64,000 nucleotides of DNA from Spirochaetota bacterium (GTDB lineage Bacteria; Spirochaetota; Spirochaetia; Treponematales; UBA12059), in the NCBI GenBank assembly GCA_018262985.1, contig JADFDI010000001.1, positions 186,001 through 250,000 on the forward strand. The letters are read 5' to 3'. Below are positions 29,422-41,233 of this stretch, piece by piece; positions within the stretch are counted from its first letter, which is position 1; every line of letters starts with the position of its first letter. The notes under the pieces were generated by a model. It was not told the origin of the DNA, made no database searches, and worked only from the letters and a program-made list of their open reading frames with translations. Both the position numbers and the translations under genes were made by a program.

Positions 29422-31893
29422 ATGAGCGACTATCTCGACCCGAACAACGAAGAACTCCTCAAGGACTTCTTCTCAGAGGCGCAGGGGCAGGTCGACCTGC
29501 TCGAGCAGAACATCCTCGTGCTCGAGAACGACCCGGGCAATCGCGACGCCGTCGACGAGATCTTCCGGGCGGCCCACACGCTGAAGGGCGGGTCTTCGAC
29601 GGTCGAGATGACGGAGCTCGCCGAATTCACCCACCTGATCGAGGACCTGCTCGACGACATCCGCGCGGACAAGGTCCGCGTGGACGGCGGACTCGTCGAC
29701 GCCCTCTTGGCCGCGATCGACATCGTCAAGGAAATGCTGGACAAGCGGATGGCCGGCTCGCGCTACGCGGGGGACGCGACGGGCGTCAAGTCGGCCCTTT
29801 CGGCCTATCGCGCGTCGGGGTCGTCGAAGGCGGCGGCCAAGGCGCGACAGGCTCCTCCCGCTCCCGCGGCCCGGACCTCGCCGCCCGCGGCCGAGCCGAA
29901 GCCCGCCGCGCCGAAGGCGGCCGCGAGGCAGGAGACGGTATCCGCCTCGGCCCTGGGCCTCAGCGAGTACGAAATCCTCGAGCTCAGGGAGTCAGCGGCC
30001 GGCAAGCGCGTCTGGCGCGTCGAGATCGATTTCGACGAGTCGAACGTCATGAACACGGTCAGCGCCATCCACGCTTTCGCGGCCATGCGCGACGCCGGCA
30101 CCGTGCTCAAGACCGAACCGGACTTCGAGAAGCTATACGAGGACACCTTCTATCCGACCGTCCGGTACTTCGTGGCCTCCGACGCGGACGGCGACGAGCT
30201 CGAGCGCCGGGCCATGATTCCCGACGTCTCGACCGCGGCCCGAATCGTCTCGGTCGCGTTCGAGGGCGTCCAGAAAGCCGAGCCCGCCCCGGCTCCGGCC
30301 GCTCCGCGGTCCCAGGGGCCGGCCGCCGCGCCCAAGCCCACTCCCGCCGCCCGCCCCGCTCAGCCGGCCCGCCCCGCGAGCCCGGAAACGGCCACCCCGT
30401 CGGGCGGCGTCGGCGAGCTCCAGGCCGAGCTTGCCAAGGCCGGGCTCCAGCGCGAGGCCGCGGACGACGAGCACGGCCACGACGCCAGGAAGCCCGGACA
30501 GCAGGGCGGTTCGATCCTGCGCGTGGACTCGCGCCGCATCGACAACCTGCTCAACCTCGTTTCCGAGGCGGTCATCAACAAGGCCACCTTCAACCAGATT
30601 TCCTCGCAGTTCGGCGAGATGCAGAACAGCCTCTCAATCGCGCAGTCCACCCACCGCGACAAGCTCAAGGAGCTCTTCGACGCGCTGCCCGAGTACCTCG
30701 AGGCCATCAGGCAGGGGCGCGCGGTCAAGGAAGTGAAGAAGGAAGTGCTGGAGCGCTTCGGCGGACTCTTCGCCGGCTTCGACGCCTTCGAGGCCGAGTA
30801 CAAGACCAACGCGGCCAAGTTCCGGGCCACCGCGCAGAACCTCGGCCGCATCACCGGCGACCTCCAGGAAGGCGTCATGCGCATCCGCATGGTGCCGATC
30901 AGCCAGATCTTCAGCCGCTTCCCGCGCCTCGTGCGCGATCTTTCCCGGACGCTCCAGAAAAAGGTCGACTTGCGCATCGAAGGCGAGGAGACCGAGCTCG
31001 ACAAGTCCGTCATCGAGGATCTGCTCGATCCGCTCATGCACGCGGTGCGCAACGCCCTCGACCACGGCGTCGAGACGCCCGACGAGCGGCTCAGGGCTGG
31101 AAAGGCCGAGGATGGCACGGTGCTCCTCAAGGCCTCGAACGAAGGCAACATGATCATCATAGAGATCGCCGACGACGGTAAAGGCATCGACGTCGAGGCG
31201 GTCAAGAAGAAGGCGGTCGAGCGCGGCATCCTGCATCCGAGCAAGGTGCTGACCGACAACGAGGCCTTCGCCCTCATCTTCGAGCCGGGCTTCTCGACCG
31301 CGAAGTCGGTCACCAACATCTCCGGCCGCGGCGTCGGCCTCGACGTCGTCAAGCGGCAGATCGAGAAGCTGAACGGATCGGTCTCCGTCTCGAGCCAGCA
31401 CGGCAAGGGCACGCGCTTCACCATCAAGCTGCCGCTCACCCTGGCCATCATCCAGGGCCTCCTGGTCCGGGTCGGCAAGGAAATCTACTCGATCCCGATC
31501 ACCAGCGTCGTGGAAAGCCACCGGATCAAGCCGTCCGAGATCCGGATGATCGACAACTACGAGGTCTTCAACGTCCGCAACGACGTGGTGTCGCTGCTCC
31601 GGCTCGACCGGCTCTTCCGCATCCGCACCGCCGAGCAGCGCGAGTACAATTTCGTGGTCATCGTCGGCACCAGCGACAAGAAGGTCGGCCTGATGGTCGA
31701 CTCGCTGATCGGCGAGGAGGACGTCGTCATCAAGCCTTTGCGCGACCAGTACACCAATTCGCCCGGAATCGCGGGCGCGTCGATCCTCGGCGACGGCTCC
31801 GTCTGCCTCATCATCGACGTCAGCCAGCTGCTCGAGCTGGGCCTGAAGCGCGAGCTCGAGGAGCGCAGGCGCCTCGAGATGACCATCCGATGA
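29422..31893 (+). CDS. cheA: Chemotaxis histidine kinase CheA (spirochaete type)
   Basis: An 823-residue kinase that phosphorylates CheY in response to receptors. The HPt domain at residues 1-110 has the phospho-acceptor in AAHTLKGGSST (His 52). A Pro/Ala-rich linker, a P2-like domain (about 175-275) and a second linker follow. The dimerisation domain is long (about 375-500, with an inserted helical stretch LFDALPEYLEAIRQGRAVKE). The ATPase domain has NALDHGVETPDERL, IADDGKGID and GRGVGLDVVK, and the CheW-like domain closes the protein. The extended dimer domain is characteristic of spirochaete CheA. ATG 29422 is used; the open frame upstream has no start of quality. Confidence 0.95.
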   Translation: MSDYLDPNNEELLKDFFSEAQGQVDLLEQNILVLENDPGNRDAVDEIFRAAHTLKGGSSTVEMTELAEFTHLIEDLLDDIRADKVRVDGGLVDALLAAIDIVKEMLDKRMAGSRYAGDATGVKSALSAYRASGSSKAAAKARQAPPAPAARTSPPAAEPKPAAPKAAARQETVSASALGLSEYEILELRESAAGKRVWRVEIDFDESNVMNTVSAIHAFAAMRDAGTVLKTEPDFEKLYEDTFYPTVRYFVASDADGDELERRAMIPDVSTAARIVSVAFEGVQKAEPAPAPAAPRSQGPAAAPKPTPAARPAQPARPASPETATPSGGVGELQAELAKAGLQREAADDEHGHDARKPGQQGGSILRVDSRRIDNLLNLVSEAVINKATFNQISSQFGEMQNSLSIAQSTHRDKLKELFDALPEYLEAIRQGRAVKEVKKEVLERFGGLFAGFDAFEAEYKTNAAKFRATAQNLGRITGDLQEGVMRIRMVPISQIFSRFPRLVRDLSRTLQKKVDLRIEGEETELDKSVIEDLLDPLMHAVRNALDHGVETPDERLRAGKAEDGTVLLKASNEGNMIIIEIADDGKGIDVEAVKKKAVERGILHPSKVLTDNEAFALIFEPGFSTAKSVTNISGRGVGLDVVKRQIEKLNGSVSVSSQHGKGTRFTIKLPLTLAIIQGLLVRVGKEIYSIPITSVVESHRIKPSEIRMIDNYEVFNVRNDVVSLLRLDRLFRIRTAEQREYNFVVIVGTSDKKVGLMVDSLIGEEDVVIKPLRDQYTNSPGIAGASILGDGSVCLIIDVSQLLELGLKRELEERRRLEMTIR

Positions 31894-33242
31894 GCGAGAG
31901 GGACCGAAGCATGAACGAAGCCGTGAACGCGGTCGCGGAACAACCGAAGGTCGAGGAAAAGAAGGACCGCGGCGAGAAGATCGACTTCAAGATGGTCACC
32001 TTCGTCCTCGCGGGCAAGGAATACGGCATCGACATCATGAACGTGAAGGAGATCGCCCACGCGGGCCGCTTCACCTACGTGCCGAACGCCGCCCCCTTCG
32101 TCCGCGGCGTCTACAACCTCCGCGGCGAGATCATCTCCATCATCGACCTCCGCACCATGTTCCACCTGCCCGCCGAGCGGAAGGACGAGGGCACGCTGGA
32201 GAACCTGTTGATACTCCAGATCCACGAGCAGGTCTTCGGCATCATCGTGGACCAGATCGACAAGGTGGTCGGCATCAACCGGTCCTCGATACAGCCGCCC
32301 CACCCGATCTTCGGCGACATCAACGTCAAGTACATACGCGGCATCGTGGAGAACCTCTCGAAGCTCTACATCATCCTCGACGTCGAGAAGATCTTCATGC
32401 CCAAGGCCAAGGAGGAGAAGGAGGACGCCTACCACCACGCCGTCCCCGCCCGCGCCGCCGCGAATCCTTCCGTGCCCACCCACGTCGCGCCGCCGGACGC
32501 CGCGGACGACGACCTCGAGCTCGGCTTCATCCGCGAGGCGCTGGCCGCCCTGCGGAATTTCGCCACGAGCGCCATCAACGAGACCTGGTTCCGGCGCCGT
32601 TTCGACGAATGGAAGGAAATGAGATCCGGCCGCGACCTCCAGCTCAAGGAAGGCGGAGAGGCGGACCTCTATCTCGAGGGCTTCTATTCGCCGTACACCG
32701 GCGAACTCTGGGGCCAGGAGTACATCGAAGCCTTCGAGGCCATCCTCCCCGCGATCGAAGGCGCTTCGATCAACGTCTGGAATCCCGGCTGCGGCAAGGG
32801 CTTCGAGACCTGGTCCGTCGCCTGCGCGCTCAAGCGCAAGTACCCGAACGGGCGGATCAAGATCTGGGCGAACGACTCCGACCTGCTCAACATCTCGATG
32901 GCGCCCAACATGGTCTTCTCGTTCGACGCGCCGCCGGAGTACTACGCCGAGTTCATGGTGCAGGGGCGCAACGGCTGGTCGTTCCGCCAGGACATCCGCG
33001 ACGCGATCTTCTTCGAGTTCCACGACGTGCTGAACACGAACTCGGTGCCGCCCTCGGACCTGATCGTCTGCCGCGACATGCTTTCGTTCCTGAACCCGCT
33101 CGACCAGAAACGGGTGGTCCTCGATTTCGCGGAAAAGCTCAAGAAGAACGGCGTCGCCGTGGTCGGCGCCAATGAACGCCTCGATCTCGAGGGCTGGGTG
33201 CCCGCGGGGACGGGAATCATTTCGGCCTATGCCAAGGCCTGA
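31890..33242 (+). CDS. CheW-CheR-like fusion coupling protein
   Basis: A 450-residue fusion. Residues about 30-170 are a CheW domain (MVTFVLAGKEYGIDIMNVKE; VRGVYNLRGEIISIIDLRTM). After a Pro/Ala linker, residues about 210-450 resemble the CheR methyltransferase (VWNPGCGKGFETWSVACALK, the SAM-binding region, and SDLIVCRDMLSF). The usual CRN of CheR is CRD here. This architecture is known from Treponema denticola (CheW-CheRlike), where it forms part of the receptor array. It overlaps cheA by ATGA. Whether the CheR part is catalytic is uncertain. Confidence 0.92.
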   Translation: MSERDRSMNEAVNAVAEQPKVEEKKDRGEKIDFKMVTFVLAGKEYGIDIMNVKEIAHAGRFTYVPNAAPFVRGVYNLRGEIISIIDLRTMFHLPAERKDEGTLENLLILQIHEQVFGIIVDQIDKVVGINRSSIQPPHPIFGDINVKYIRGIVENLSKLYIILDVEKIFMPKAKEEKEDAYHHAVPARAAANPSVPTHVAPPDAADDDLELGFIREALAALRNFATSAINETWFRRRFDEWKEMRSGRDLQLKEGGEADLYLEGFYSPYTGELWGQEYIEAFEAILPAIEGASINVWNPGCGKGFETWSVACALKRKYPNGRIKIWANDSDLLNISMAPNMVFSFDAPPEYYAEFMVQGRNGWSFRQDIRDAIFFEFHDVLNTNSVPPSDLIVCRDMLSFLNPLDQKRVVLDFAEKLKKNGVAVVGANERLDLEGWVPAGTGIISAYAKA

Positions 33243-33272
33243 AGCGGGCGTGCCGCCCGGAGGGAGAACGCC

Positions 33273-33737
33273 GTGAGAGTGGAATACATCAACCCCTTCG
33301 TGGAATCGGCCTTCAACGTGTTGAAGGAAGTGCTCCAGGGCGACATCAAGCGGGGGGAGCTCTACCTGAAGAGCACCTCGATGCCCGTCATGGGAGTGGC
33401 GGCCCTCGTCGGGCTCGCGGGCGACGTCGAGGGACGCGTCCTCTTCGACATGGAGAAGGCCTCGGCGCTCAAGATCGCGAGCGCGATGAACGGCGAGCAG
33501 CTCACCGCCATGGACGAGCTCGTGAAGGCGACCATCACCGAGCTGGCCAACATGATCACGGCGCAGGCCGTGACCAAACTCCACGAGCTCGGTTTCCGCT
33601 TCGACCTGACCCCTCCCGCCATCTTCACCGGCGACAACATGGAGGTTTCCGACCAGGACGTGGAAGCCCTCATCGTGCCCATGGAGACGCCGCAGGGAAA
33701 GATCGAGATCAACGTGGCCATCCGCGAGCGCGGCTAG
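33273..33737 (+). CDS. cheX: CheY-P phosphatase CheX
   Basis: A 154-residue CheX. It dephosphorylates CheY-P. The catalytic Glu and Asn lie in ATITELANMITAQAV, the E-x2-N pattern of the CheC/CheX/FliY family. GTG start at 33273 follows GGAGGGA. It sits between the cheW-cheR fusion and cheY, the classic spirochaete order. Confidence 0.93.
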   Translation: MRVEYINPFVESAFNVLKEVLQGDIKRGELYLKSTSMPVMGVAALVGLAGDVEGRVLFDMEKASALKIASAMNGEQLTAMDELVKATITELANMITAQAVTKLHELGFRFDLTPPAIFTGDNMEVSDQDVEALIVPMETPQGKIEINVAIRERG

Positions 33738-33751
33738 GCCGGGGGCGCGAC

Positions 33752-34189
33752 ATGAAGACGAAGGACGATTTCCCCTCCCTCAACGAACGCAAGCCCGAGG
33801 GCATGAAGCCGGACGGCACCCCGTGGCGCGTGCTCATCGTGGACGACTCGATGTTCGTGGCCAAGCAGATCACCCAGATCCTCACCTCGGAAGGGTACCA
33901 GGTGGTGCACACCGCGGCCGACGGGCTCGAGGGCTACGAGAAGTACAAGGAGCTCTATCCGAACATCGACCTCGTGACCATGGACATAACCATGCCGCGC
34001 ATGGACGGCCTCTCGGCCTTGCAGAAGATCATCGAGTTCGACAAGAACGCCAAGGTCATCATGATCTCGGCCCTCGGAAAGCAGGATCTCGTGAAGCAGG
34101 CCCTGGTGGCCGGGGCGAAGAACTATATCGTCAAGCCGCTCGACCGCAAGAAGGTGCTCGAGCGCCTGCAGAGCGTCCTCGGTAAATAG
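33752..34189 (+). CDS. cheY: Chemotaxis response regulator CheY
   Basis: A 145-residue single-domain receiver. The acidic pocket is LIVDDSM (Asp 31, 32), the phosphorylation site is in VTMDITMPRMDG (Asp 78), and switch residues are Ser 106 (ISA) and Lys 128 (IVKPLD). An N-terminal extension of about 25 residues precedes the domain. It ends the operon and would carry the signal to the flagellar switch. Confidence 0.95.
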   Translation: MKTKDDFPSLNERKPEGMKPDGTPWRVLIVDDSMFVAKQITQILTSEGYQVVHTAADGLEGYEKYKELYPNIDLVTMDITMPRMDGLSALQKIIEFDKNAKVIMISALGKQDLVKQALVAGAKNYIVKPLDRKKVLERLQSVLGK

Positions 34190-37375: not shown

Positions 37376-38305
37376 GTGGATTTCACGCTCGAACCCCGGA
37401 CCGCGGAGACGCGGCGCAGCTTCTCCCTCGTGCGCTTTCGCGGCGACCTGCCGGAGGGCGGCCCGTCGTTGCCTCCGGGTATCCTGGTCGTGCTCGTCCG
37501 CGGCGAGCTCGAGGCGCCCGGCGCGCGCGGGAGCGAGGTGACGGTTCCGCTGGCGGACGCCCCGGCCTTGGCCTTGGCGCTCGAGGGCGACGGACTCGGC
37601 ACAGGGTCCTCCGGAGGCGAAGGCTACGTCCTGCGCTTCGAGCCGGGCTACGCGGAAGCGCTCGGCGCTGGAAGCCTGGAACGCGCGGGGCGTCCGCGAG
37701 CGGCGGCGGCGCGCGTCGACGAGGCGGAACGCGCGCGGACCATCTGCGAAGCGCTGTTCCCGGAAGCGGAGCGCGCTGATCCCTGGCGCGAGACCGCGCT
37801 CGCCGCCCTGCTCATGGAGCTTTTCTCGCTGTCGTTCCGGACGCTCGACGCGGGGCGGACTCGCCCGCCGAAGACCCCGGCGCGATGTGCCGAGGGGCAA
37901 GGAGCGGCGGTCGATTCGGACGAAACGCCGGCCTCCGGGTCGACGCCCGCGCCTGTCCGATCGGGGGCCGGTTCAGGCGGAGGGGCCTGGCGGATCGAGG
38001 ACGCGGTGAGCTGGGCCGCGGAGCACTGCGCCGAGGCGCACTCGCTGGACTTCTACGTGACGCGCTGCGCCACGAATCCGAGCGACTTCTCGAGGCGCTT
38101 CAAGGCGCTCGCCGGCTGCCCGCTTTTCGAGTACGTCAACCGCAAGCGCGTCGAGCGCGCCTGCGTCCTCCTCAAGACCACCGGGCTCTCGATCCTCGAG
38201 GTGTCGCTCGCGGTCGGCTACAACAACCTTTCCTTCTTCAACCGTTACTTCCTGAGGCTCATGGGGCTCCAGCCGCGGGCCTGGCGCGAACGCGCGAGGA
38301 AGTGA
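37376..38305 (+). CDS. AraC-family transcriptional regulator
   Basis: A 309-residue regulator. The N-terminal half (1-170) is a poorly conserved sensing domain, followed by a low-complexity linker (about 175-205). Residues about 210-309 form the two-helix-turn-helix AraC domain: FYVTRCATNPSDFSRRFKAL and then LSILEVSLAVGYNNLSFFNR with YFLRLMGLQPRAWRERAR. The GTG start at 37376 is the first in frame. It lies upstream of the SpoA/FliM-FliG operon on the same strand, 185 bases away; whether it controls that operon or yjbQ is unknown. Confidence 0.85.
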   Translation: MDFTLEPRTAETRRSFSLVRFRGDLPEGGPSLPPGILVVLVRGELEAPGARGSEVTVPLADAPALALALEGDGLGTGSSGGEGYVLRFEPGYAEALGAGSLERAGRPRAAAARVDEAERARTICEALFPEAERADPWRETALAALLMELFSLSFRTLDAGRTRPPKTPARCAEGQGAAVDSDETPASGSTPAPVRSGAGSGGGAWRIEDAVSWAAEHCAEAHSLDFYVTRCATNPSDFSRRFKALAGCPLFEYVNRKRVERACVLLKTTGLSILEVSLAVGYNNLSFFNRYFLRLMGLQPRAWRERARK

Positions 38306-38490
38306 GCGTTCCCGCGAGGGGATACCGGCGCCCGTGCCCGCAAGACGGCATCCGGCCGGCCGGTGGCGCGGAGACGTTCGCGCCGCGCCCGTTCGCCCTC
38401 AATCGAGTGCCGTTCAGTCCCCGCATTTCCTCAAGATCGTGCAAGACCGCCCGTCCGCGCCGATCTAGGCTTTGCGGCATGGAGGAAACC

Positions 38491-38760
38491 ATGGACGGAT
38501 CGAAACGCGCGGAACGCCGGGATGACCCGGCGGCGGACCTGGTCTTGGCCACGGAGCTCGTCATGGCCCGCGGCTCCCTTTCCCCGCTGGAGATAGCCGT
38601 GGGAAGCCGTGAGGGCCGGATCGAGCTGCCCGAGGGCGAAGGCGGGCGGATGCTGCTCGAGGCGGGCGGCACGGCGATCGCCGAGGGCCGCGTCGTCAGG
38701 AAGGGCGGCCGGCATTTCTTCAAGATCACGCGGCTCTTCGAGCCGGGGGAGGTGGCATGA
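38491..38760 (+). CDS. SpoA (FliN-like) domain protein, divergent
   Basis: An 89-residue protein and first gene of the switch operon. ATG 38491 has GGAGGAAA directly upstream; an in-frame ATG at 38479 would add four residues. The sequence fits a small SpoA domain: ARGSLSPLEIAVGSREGRIE, then GRMLLEAGGTAIAEGRVVRK, then HFFKITRLFEPGE, matching the beta-strands of FliN/SctQ C-terminal domains. It diverges more from the consensus than the next gene, which it overlaps by ATGA. Two adjacent SpoA proteins would be expected to pair as a heterodimer. Confidence 0.75.
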   Translation: MDGSKRAERRDDPAADLVLATELVMARGSLSPLEIAVGSREGRIELPEGEGGRMLLEAGGTAIAEGRVVRKGGRHFFKITRLFEPGEVA

Positions 38761-39008
38761 CGCGGACGGGAACGGTGGAGGACGCGAGGCTCAGGGTCGA
38801 GGTGGTGCTCGGGGGGACGGAGCTCACGGTCGGAGAGCTCTCGGAGGTCGGCCGGGGCAGCATCATCGCGCTCGAGTCGATCGCGGGCGAGCCCGTGGAG
38901 CTCCGCGCCGGCGGGCGGACCGTGGCCCGCGGCGAGGTGGTGGTCATCGACGAGAATTTCGGCATCCGCGTCACCGAGCTCGCCATGCGGTCGGGAGCCG
39001 GATCATGA
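38757..39008 (+). CDS. fliN: Flagellar switch protein FliN-like (SpoA domain)
   Basis: An 83-residue protein made of one SpoA domain with clear FliN consensus: RLRVEVVLGGTELTVGELSE, GSIIALESIAGEPVELRAGG and ARGEVVVIDENFGIRVTEL. FliN forms the base of the cytoplasmic C-ring of the flagellar motor. The gene overlaps its neighbours on both sides by ATGA, so the three proteins are probably made together. It lacks the N-terminal extension of typical FliN. Confidence 0.9.
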   Translation: MTRTGTVEDARLRVEVVLGGTELTVGELSEVGRGSIIALESIAGEPVELRAGGRTVARGEVVVIDENFGIRVTELAMRSGAGS

Positions 39009-40948
39009 GCGACGACGGACTTGGAAGCGCCACGCCGGGGCGCGGCATACTCGGCCTGCGCGGTCCCGCCGACCGCGGGTACCGGGTCAAGCTCTACGAC
39101 TTCCGGCGGCCGGACAAATTCTCGAAAGAGCAGATCCGGACCGTCGCGAACCTCCACGAGGCGTTCGCGCGGATGGCCGGGACGGCGCTCTCCGCCCGCT
39201 TGCGCCTGCCCTGCGAAGCCCGGCTCTCGAGCGTGGACCAAATGACCTGGGAAGAGTACGCGCGCTCGATCCCGACGCCGACCCTGCTCTCGGTCGGACG
39301 CATGGCGCCGCTCAAGGGCCGCTTCACGCTCGAACTCGAGCCGGTGGCGGCCGACGCCGTCGTGGAGCGCATGTTCGGCGCTCCCGCCGAAGCGCCGACC
39401 GGCCGGACCGAGCCCGGCCTTCCGCTTGACTTCGACGCGCTCAAGGCCGCGTACGAGGACCTCAAGGCCGCGGGCGCCGCGACGCGGCTCGGCGCGGTCG
39501 GCGTGACCGACCTGGAATACGCGGCGCTCGAGGCCGTGTTCGTCGAGCTGTACGGCCGCGTGGCCGAAGCCTGGTCGGGCATCGAGAAGCTCGAGTGCGC
39601 GCTCGAACAGGTCGAGACCGACGTCCAGTTCGTCCAGATCGTCCCGCCGCACGAGATGATCGTCATCGCGACGATCGAGCTCGCCATCGGAGGGCGGAAG
39701 GGCCTCCTCAACCTGGTCTATCCTTTCCAGCTGATCGAGCCGCTCGTGCCGAAGCTCAACGCCCGCTATTGGTACGGCAATCGCGGGAAGCCCGGCGAGA
39801 CGGTCGGCGCGACCGGAGCCTGGCGGCTGCCGGCGCCCACCGAAGCGATAGCCGCCGGCGCGCGGCTTTCCGTGGCGGAGCTCCGCGCCCTCAGGAAGGG
39901 CAGCCTCGTACCGCTGCCGGGGCTCGACGACGGCGTCGCGCGGCTCCGCTCGGGCGGCGCGGAAGTGCGGACGCTCCGCGTTCCCGCGACGCGTTCCGGG
40001 CGGAGGCTCCGTTTCGAGGTGGTCGCGGACGCCGGAGCCGACGAAGCCCCGCTCGAGGACGCGGGCGGCGCCTCGGGACGCGGCGCGACCGATAGCCTCA
40101 AGAGGAGCCTCGAGGTTTTCGGCGCGAAGGTCGAAGCGTCGATCGCCTCGCTCGGGACTTCCCTGGCGGCGCTCGAAGGAAAGCAGGAAGCGCTCGCCGA
40201 CCGCATCCTCTACGGCGCCGCGGCCGGAGCGGAGGAGCTTCCTCCCAGCCGGTCCGTCGCGCGGCCCTTCTCGGAGCTCTCGGGCGCATCCGCCGAGGAC
40301 CTCGCCCTTTTCCTCTCGAACGAACGGGCGCAGGTGGCGGCCCTGGTACTGTCCTGGCTCGACCCGGCGCTTTCATCGGGGGTGCTGGCCCGATTGCCGG
40401 ACGAGGCGCAGGCCGAGGTGGTGCGCCGCGTCGGCTGCCTCGACGGGGCCTCCGCCGAGGTGCTTTCATCGACCGCGCGCGTGCTCGCCAAGAAGCTCGC
40501 CGCCATGGGCGCCGAAAATCGGGCCGCGGGCGGAGTCGGAACCATCGTCGGCATGCTCAACCTGGTGCCGCGCGCGGTGGAGAAGCGCGTCGTCGAGACT
40601 CTCGAGAAGATCGACCGCGCGCTCGCGGAGGACGTGAAGCGGAACATGTTCGTATTCGAGGACATCTCCATCCTCGAGGACGAGTCGATCGACGCCGTGC
40701 TCGGAAGGGCGGAGGAGCGCGACGTGCTGGTGGCCATGAAGGTCGTGCAGGAGCCCTTGCGCGAGCGGCTCTTCGAGCGCTTCGCGAAGGTCAGGGGGGC
40801 GGATGAGTCCGCCCGCCTCCGGGCCGAGTACCAGGCCATCGGTCGGGTGCGCCTCGCCGACGCCGACTCGGCCGGTTTCCGCGTGGTCGAGCTGATCCGC
40901 ACCCTCGAGCAGGAAGGTCGCATCTTCATCGCCCGCGACGACGATTGA
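39005..40948 (+). CDS. FliM-FliG fusion flagellar switch protein
   Basis: A single 647-residue open frame joining two motor proteins. Residues about 20-255 are FliM (YRVKLYDFRRPDKFSKEQIR; SSVDQMTWEEYARSIPTPTL; the middle domain to NARYWY). About 275-340 are a divergent SpoA domain (LSVAELRALRKGSLVPLPG). After a linker, residues about 425-647 are FliG middle plus C-terminal domains (EDLALFLSNERAQVAALVLS; GGVGTIVGMLNLVPRAVEKR; the MFVF motif in RNMFVFEDISILEDE; GRVRLADADSAGF). Missing parts: the FliM N-terminal CheY-binding peptide and the FliG N-terminal FliF-binding domain. The FliM GGPG loop reads GAPA and the FliG EHPQ motif reads ERAQ. The domains are plain; function as a second switch assembly is inference. 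Confidence 0.92.
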   Translation: MSDDGLGSATPGRGILGLRGPADRGYRVKLYDFRRPDKFSKEQIRTVANLHEAFARMAGTALSARLRLPCEARLSSVDQMTWEEYARSIPTPTLLSVGRMAPLKGRFTLELEPVAADAVVERMFGAPAEAPTGRTEPGLPLDFDALKAAYEDLKAAGAATRLGAVGVTDLEYAALEAVFVELYGRVAEAWSGIEKLECALEQVETDVQFVQIVPPHEMIVIATIELAIGGRKGLLNLVYPFQLIEPLVPKLNARYWYGNRGKPGETVGATGAWRLPAPTEAIAAGARLSVAELRALRKGSLVPLPGLDDGVARLRSGGAEVRTLRVPATRSGRRLRFEVVADAGADEAPLEDAGGASGRGATDSLKRSLEVFGAKVEASIASLGTSLAALEGKQEALADRILYGAAAGAEELPPSRSVARPFSELSGASAEDLALFLSNERAQVAALVLSWLDPALSSGVLARLPDEAQAEVVRRVGCLDGASAEVLSSTARVLAKKLAAMGAENRAAGGVGTIVGMLNLVPRAVEKRVVETLEKIDRALAEDVKRNMFVFEDISILEDESIDAVLGRAEERDVLVAMKVVQEPLRERLFERFAKVRGADESARLRAEYQAIGRVRLADADSAGFRVVELIRTLEQEGRIFIARDDD

Positions 40949-41160: not shown

Positions 41161-41233
41161 GCCGCTGTAGCTCAGTTGGTAGAGCAGTGGACTGAAAATC
41201 CACGTGTCGTCAGTTCAATTCTGACCGGTGGCA
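41161..41233 (+). tRNA. tRNA-Phe (anticodon GAA)
   Basis: A 73-base cloverleaf. Acceptor GCCGCTG pairs with CGGTGGC (two G-T pairs), the anticodon stem GTGGA/TCCAC holds loop CTGAAAA (anticodon GAA), and the T arm GTCAG/CTGAC holds TTCAATT. Discriminator A; CCA is not encoded. Confidence 0.97.

Follow-up and report, generated by a model that had tools for sequence, protein, structure and literature searches.

FliG, FliM and FliN are usually regarded as three separate, nearly invariant proteins. In the 64,000-nucleotide stretch of a Spirochaetota genome analyzed here (the window), one open reading frame leads from FliM into the middle and C-terminal domains of FliG, directly behind two genes for small SpoA proteins. 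We asked whether this frame encodes a genuine protein, how widely such a protein occurs, and what a chain assembled from these rotor parts might do in a cell that also has an ordinary motor.

FliM and FliG domains are joined in one conserved frame

The three genes lie on the + strand and share 4-nt ATGA overlaps (ORF1 with ORF2, and ORF2 with ORF3), indicating translational coupling, as an earlier note on this DNA had read from the sequence. SpoA1 (ORF1, 38491..38760, 89 aa) is a divergent small SpoA protein of the FliM/FliN C-terminal type, and SpoA2 (ORF2, 38757..39008, 83 aa) is a strongly conserved FliN-like SpoA protein. The fusion itself (ORF3, 39005..40948, 647 aa), which we identified by Pfam domains, orthologues and Foldseek, matched Pfam FliM (E=1.2e-45), FliG_M (E=1.5e-17) and FliG_C (E=9.6e-19) in a single frame. 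From the N-terminus, it consists of a FliM middle domain (residues ~26-258, 39080..39778; Pfam FliM match over residues 31 to ~255, and structure model), a degenerate SpoA-like region (residues ~262-337, 39788..40015; sub-threshold PF01052 match with E=0.13, model and Foldseek), a helical linker from FliM to FliG (residues ~357-407, 40073..40225; helices predicted at 357-389 and 394-403 with low confidence), FliG_M (residues 431-503, 40295..40513) and FliG_C (residues 531-642, 40595..40930), all on the + strand. Both FliG domains thus fall within residues 425-647, where the earlier note had placed them, and its divergent SpoA domain corresponds to the degenerate region. The absence of the FliF-binding domain was likewise borne out: FliG_N had no match at its own position, the only Pfam match (E=0.17) lying over FliG_M.

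Given that the source data are draft and MAG-type, the frame could in principle stem from a faulty assembly, a frameshift error or a pseudogene in decay. Conservation refutes this explanation, to which we give next to no credence. The whole protein was found in two congeners at 79-82% identity and in other genera at 40-48%, with no internal stops, contradicting a frameshift or assembly join at the junction, and the same architecture with intact frames recurs in about 30 genomes. Blocks conserved among the fusion orthologues span FliM, the SpoA region, the linker and FliG. The dN/dS of the fusion ORF was 0.23-0.29, and the values for the individual domains and for the linker (0.16-0.25) were all below 1. 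By these measures, orthologue conservation, conserved blocks and dN/dS below 1, the fusion is an old protein under selection.

The AlphaFold2 model of the fusion (pLDDT 73.5) was mostly above 85 for FliM_M and FliG_C and poor for the linker, with low-confidence beta structure in the SpoA-like region. In Foldseek searches the model aligned over 324 columns, which include the SpoA region, with FliM from C-ring structures of Salmonella, and also matched the FliG middle and C-terminal domains of solved C-rings; the best PDB match to the FliG part was 1LKV. The PDB holds FliM:FliG complexes and one FliF-FliG chain, and we found no FliM-FliG fusion there, no NCBIfam model for one and no natural example in the open-access literature, in agreement with the earlier note, which knew of none. 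We regard the fusion as C-ring parts combined in a way, and set in a cassette, for which we found no description.

The two small proteins differ in how readily they are recognized. SpoA2 contains a complete SpoA domain (PF01052, E=2.6e-21) and scored 77.6 bits against TIGR02480 (NCBIfam), slightly below the cut-off of 84.05. SpoA1 alone was marginal against the SpoA Pfam model (E=0.0068), and PF01052 was matched by 20/23 of its relatives (best E 6e-10). A SpoA1 profile gave 96.7% against the SpoA2 profile (hhalign) and, in a PDB profile search, matched the SpoA proteins SpaO and FliN. The fold model of SpoA1, built from only three sequences, was poor (pLDDT 51.5).

The fusion recurs across Spirochaetota

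Complete or near-complete orthologues were found in about 30 Spirochaetota genomes, which represent some 12 families and extend beyond a single class, and SpoA1 and SpoA2 accompany every one of them; these counts are samples of Spirochaetota, most carriers being MAG-like draft genomes, and other phyla were partly sampled. SpoA1 and SpoA2 lie directly 5´ of the fusion in 26/26 complete or near-complete carriers, mostly with ATGA-type overlaps. Outside the window's own family, the fusion occurs in further families of the same order (G025, and G157, where the gene is cut by a contig end), in many families from different orders within the class (G679, G794, G731, G724, G703, G716, G736, G759 and G783, as well as G722, G729, G776 with two copies, G788, G702, G826 and G830) and outside the class (G463 and G404). 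The protein of G463 (record JAKSBL010000019, Spirochaetes bacterium MAG.183) is 24% identical, and its locus has the same three genes, followed by an AraC gene. In G776 the cassette occurs twice, on contigs C176 and C209 (L188, L191), in versions that differ from each other and are both accompanied by an AraC gene of their own. The distribution is patchy, with no fusion in close relatives that are more than 95% complete (G008, G009, G010, G015 and G016). All full-length matches among those listed in a scan of named genomes were to spirochaetes, and no plasmid record covered 80% of the fusion.

In a FliM tree the fusions need three changes, and a single clade was not rejected (p-AU 0.074). In a quick FliG tree the FliG parts of the fusions stood apart from standard FliGs save for two rows, which are themselves fusion fragments at contig ends. 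The constant gene order argues for a single origin, of which trees of such short, fast-evolving domains are no proof. The least diverged fusion is that of L167 (G794), whose FliM part groups among standard FliMs in the tree; it may be close to the condition in which the fusion arose.

An AraC-type gene and an operator-like site belong to the cassette

The three genes read as an operon in the earlier note do form one on the + strand; what that reading overlooked is a fourth conserved member and an operator-like site. A gene for an AraC-type transcriptional regulator (37376..38305, +, 309 aa; Pfam HTH_18, E=8.6e-19) is a constant neighbor of the cassette: an AraC-type gene was present on the same strand in 24/26 carrier loci (the two without it are on contigs of only 3.4-3.9 kb), and it lies either ~1.4 kb 5´ of the fusion or directly 3´ of it. 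No known domain was matched by the N-terminal part of the window's AraC protein. Across the 26 carrier loci, no neighbor apart from AraC was common beyond close relatives, and none was flagellar. In the window, a chemotaxis operon (29500-34189, +; cheA, a cheW-cheR fusion, cheX and cheY) ends ~3 kb 5´ of the AraC gene, a proximity that none of the other examined loci showed. A tRNA-Phe gene (41161-41233, +) lies directly downstream of the cassette, and the window also contains tRNA-Val and tRNA-Lys genes.

Upstream of the cassette operon we detected a conserved operator-like site, CAAGATaGTGcAAGACC, which in the window reads CAAGATCGTGCAAGACC (38432..38448, +, ~55 nt 5´ of SpoA1). Its conserved AT[AC]GTG core occurred in 16/22 upstream regions, compared with a mean of 1.7 (maximum 7) after shuffling, and in 2 on the opposite strand, and is thus almost confined to the operon strand. 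The core is found in tandem, ~32 bp apart, at several loci, and the window has a weaker copy of the site ~32 nt farther upstream. In the window genome and in G001, G002, G004, G011 and G020 (record JAHIWG010000027), the sole perfect copy of the site was the cassette's own; none was present in four non-carrier genomes scanned. We infer that AraC is a dedicated local regulator of the cassette, which may act through the putative operator.

Rotor-defining features are lost from the fusion

We compared the fusion with the features by which FliM and FliG are recognized. Against the FliM equivalog TIGR01397 it scored 155.5 bits, under the cut-off of 219.6, and against the FliG equivalog TIGR00207 it scored 166.6 (cut-off 226.7), aligning from position 100 of 338. 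Of FliM it has the middle domain (PF02154) and lacks the CheY peptide, a recognizable C-terminal SpoA domain and an equivalog-level score; of FliG it has FliG_M and FliG_C and lacks FliG_N and the torque residues. Judged by these profiles and motifs, the fusion fails the defining features of FliM and of FliG alike.

Rotor-stator interaction depends primarily on FliG residues R281, D288 and D289 and secondarily on K264 and R297, as determined in species other than the carriers (PMC6079164). With annotated E. coli K-12 FliG as the reference for mapping, the window fusion has D/A/E at R281/D288/D289 and keeps K264 and R297. Only 1/24 fusions with a FliG_C retains R281, compared with 8/8 standard FliGs, including the window genome's own copy on contig C21, and acids at both 288 and 289 likewise occur in 1/24 fusions, whereas the eight standard FliGs compared are acidic at 288/289. 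Across the 24 fusions, K264 and R297 (or K) are for the most part still present, and the FliG_C of the fusion is therefore not simply decayed. The earlier note had proposed that the fusion tethers the torque-generating domain to the switch; this is doubtful because the primary torque charges are lost from the fusion family, while standard FliG keeps them.

The CheY-binding FliM peptide LSQDEID (LSQxEIDxLL) was present in nearly all standard FliMs retrieved. It was absent from the window fusion and its relatives but for one remnant in 26, that of L167, MTDRLTKEDVDGLL. With the peptide gone, the alternative switch that the earlier note had also considered is unlikely to be a chemotactic one. Contact between FliM and FliG is known to involve two motifs, the GGxG loop in FliM and EHPQ in FliG. 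Both are retained in many fusion families and are eroded in that of the window, where they read FGAP and ERAQ.

Two loci show larger changes in the FliG part. L179 / L195 (G703) is a natural variant of the fusion that ends after FliG_M, with FliG_C gone, which suggests that FliG_C is dispensable in some lineages. In the most distant fusion (L050:7300-7791), FliG_C is barely recognizable, with a faint similarity (E=3e-5) to the MgtE N-domain, whose helical-repeat fold is related.

Carriers have one ordinary motor

Separate full-length fliG, fliM and fliN (the last as fliN/Y) are present elsewhere in the window genome, all on contig C21, and the cassette is therefore an add-on beside a standard motor, one of the options the earlier note had raised. 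An additional FliG-like gene on contig C20 (L002:868-2154) encodes a 428 aa FliG-type protein that is much extended at its N-terminus and has divergent residues; it may be the FliG1-type accessory protein of spirochaetes. A contig search of the window genome gave no match to a FliF gene. The contig ends just before standard fliG with codons that read ...EHPEDVAQLIRTWLREE-stop, which we take to be the FliF C-terminus; its position directly before fliG indicates that the fliF of this genome is cut by the contig end.

The carriers sampled likewise have a standard FliM and FliG, and those other than the window genome each had exactly one FliF/YscJ-type gene (18/18; PF01514, which covers YscJ and FliF). 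This single gene per carrier rules out, for practical purposes, a second complete motor and likewise an injectisome with its own SctJ. The wording of the earlier note had left room for an alternative switch, so that the cassette might supply the C-ring of another motor, flagellar or T3SS-like, with its genes elsewhere in the genome. We consider this very improbable: the search revealed no such motor, and the window genome's own FliF gene lies cut at the contig end beside fliG.

A proposed accessory C-ring module

The composition of the cassette, its linkage of AraC, operator-like site and SpoA genes, and its coexistence with one ordinary motor are evident from the genomes compared. As predicted from its domains, the fusion retains what builds the ring (FliM_M, FliG_M, the FliG_C fold and the SpoA partners) and is without an anchor to the MS-ring (FliG_N), a handle for CheY-P and the stator-pushing charges. 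The explanation that we favor, tentatively, is that the cassette encodes an inducible, torque-poor accessory C-ring module that would mix with or cap the normal rotor. The AraC protein would turn the operon on, SpoA1 and SpoA2 would pair with the SpoA region of the fusion, and the fusion would supply FliM and FliG at a fixed 1:1 ratio. It might then insert into or cap the existing C-ring via FliM_M-FliM_M, FliG_M-FliM_M and SpoA contacts, creating torque-poor, CheY-deaf ring positions whose effect would be less torque, a bias in direction or a held rotor; the outcome would be a brake or gear built from rotor parts. With somewhat more reserve, we suggest that the AraC-induced fusion and SpoA pair may act as dummy subunits that mix into a working C-ring and throttle or lock the motor. 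If true, this would be motor control by exchange of paralogous subunits, not by a bound brake protein.

The constant cassette, the single FliF, the lost torque and CheY features, purifying selection and the FliM and FliG folds are consistent with the accessory module, for which Borrelia FliG1, an accessory FliG of a spirochaete, offers a precedent (PMC7225975). Against it, GGxG and EHPQ are eroded in the window's own family, where docking on standard subunits may be lost; no conserved neighbor is flagellar, despite the che operon 3 kb upstream in the window; a scaffold unrelated to the motor might be built from these parts as well; and the importance of the torque residues derives from other species (PMC6079164). 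Such a scaffold would stand alone in the cytoplasm as a sorting platform, forming its own ring or pods in the manner of SctQ/SpaO and staging a cargo or enzyme outside the rotor. It would fit a fusion without FliG_N or CheY peptide, the eroded FliM-FliG interface motifs, the match of the SpoA1 profile to SpaO of the injectisome and the existence of a natural relative (L179) without FliG_C altogether. However, FliG_M and FliG_C are under purifying selection, one FliF/SctJ per genome means no injectisome, and the cassette has no export or effector gene; to our knowledge, no sorting platform needs FliG. We regard the scaffold as unlikely.

An assembly sensor seems less likely again. Here the switch-like proteins would bind and hold the AraC protein, much as anti-activators act on ExsA-type regulators, and the state of the C-ring would control a gene set. 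The AraC linkage is indeed as constant as the SpoA partners, and the operator-like site lies directly 5´ of the operon, but the only perfect site in six carriers is the cassette's own, with no wider regulon visible, local autoregulation is the simpler account of the linkage, and the N-terminal part of the AraC protein has no match among known domains. Closest to the idea in the earlier note is an alternative torque-generating rotor ring on the same MS-ring, with FliM and FliG at 1:1. FliM, FliG_MC and the SpoA partners do amount to most C-ring parts, and the K264 and R297 equivalents are kept; with FliG_N missing, R281, D288 and D289 lost across the family and no CheY peptide, we nevertheless find this reading improbable. 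Among these readings the accessory module, in which the fusion would work much as C-ring parts do, remains our best guess.

Comparison with known systems

A natural FliM-FliG fusion has thus been selected across a phylum, in a fixed and apparently regulated cassette, while stripped of rotor-defining features. Either rotors are tunable by swapping in an inert paralogue, or components of the C-ring have been put to some other use. The covalent link between FliM and FliG also offers a ready 1:1 fusion for studying C-ring geometry. The motor brakes and clutches YcgR, EpsE and MotL tune torque at FliG/FliM and are PilZ or glycosyltransferase proteins. The torque tuning proposed for the cassette would be alike, but those proteins are not copies of rotor parts.

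With the standard C-ring of FliG, FliM and FliN (Salmonella 8UMD/8UMX; PMC11087270), the cassette shares the FliM middle, SpoA, FliG_M and FliG_C domains. It differs in that the fusion is one chain, without FliG_N, CheY peptide or torque charges, and in that the cassette adds two SpoA mini-proteins and an AraC gene and coexists with the standard set. Salmonella FliF-FliG fusions (for example PDB 8z4d, and fusion mutants) likewise place two rotor proteins in one chain, but these are laboratory or mutant fusions of other partners, the MS-ring with FliG, and we found none joining FliM to FliG. In engineered FliM::FliN (4YXB) and in SpoA proteins of the SpaO/FliY type, SpoA domains are fused or split, and the FliG part is absent. 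The diversified C-ring of Campylobacter jejuni has FliY and FliN, extra SpoA-type components beside FliM (PMC6946799). It is not known to have a FliM-FliG fusion or an AraC cassette. Borrelia FliG1 is an asymmetrically located accessory FliG, dispensable for flagellar assembly and described as central for torque (PMC7225975). It resembles the fusion as an accessory FliG-type protein beside the essential FliG of a single motor, but it is FliG alone, whereas the fusion carries FliM and is without FliG_N and the torque residues.
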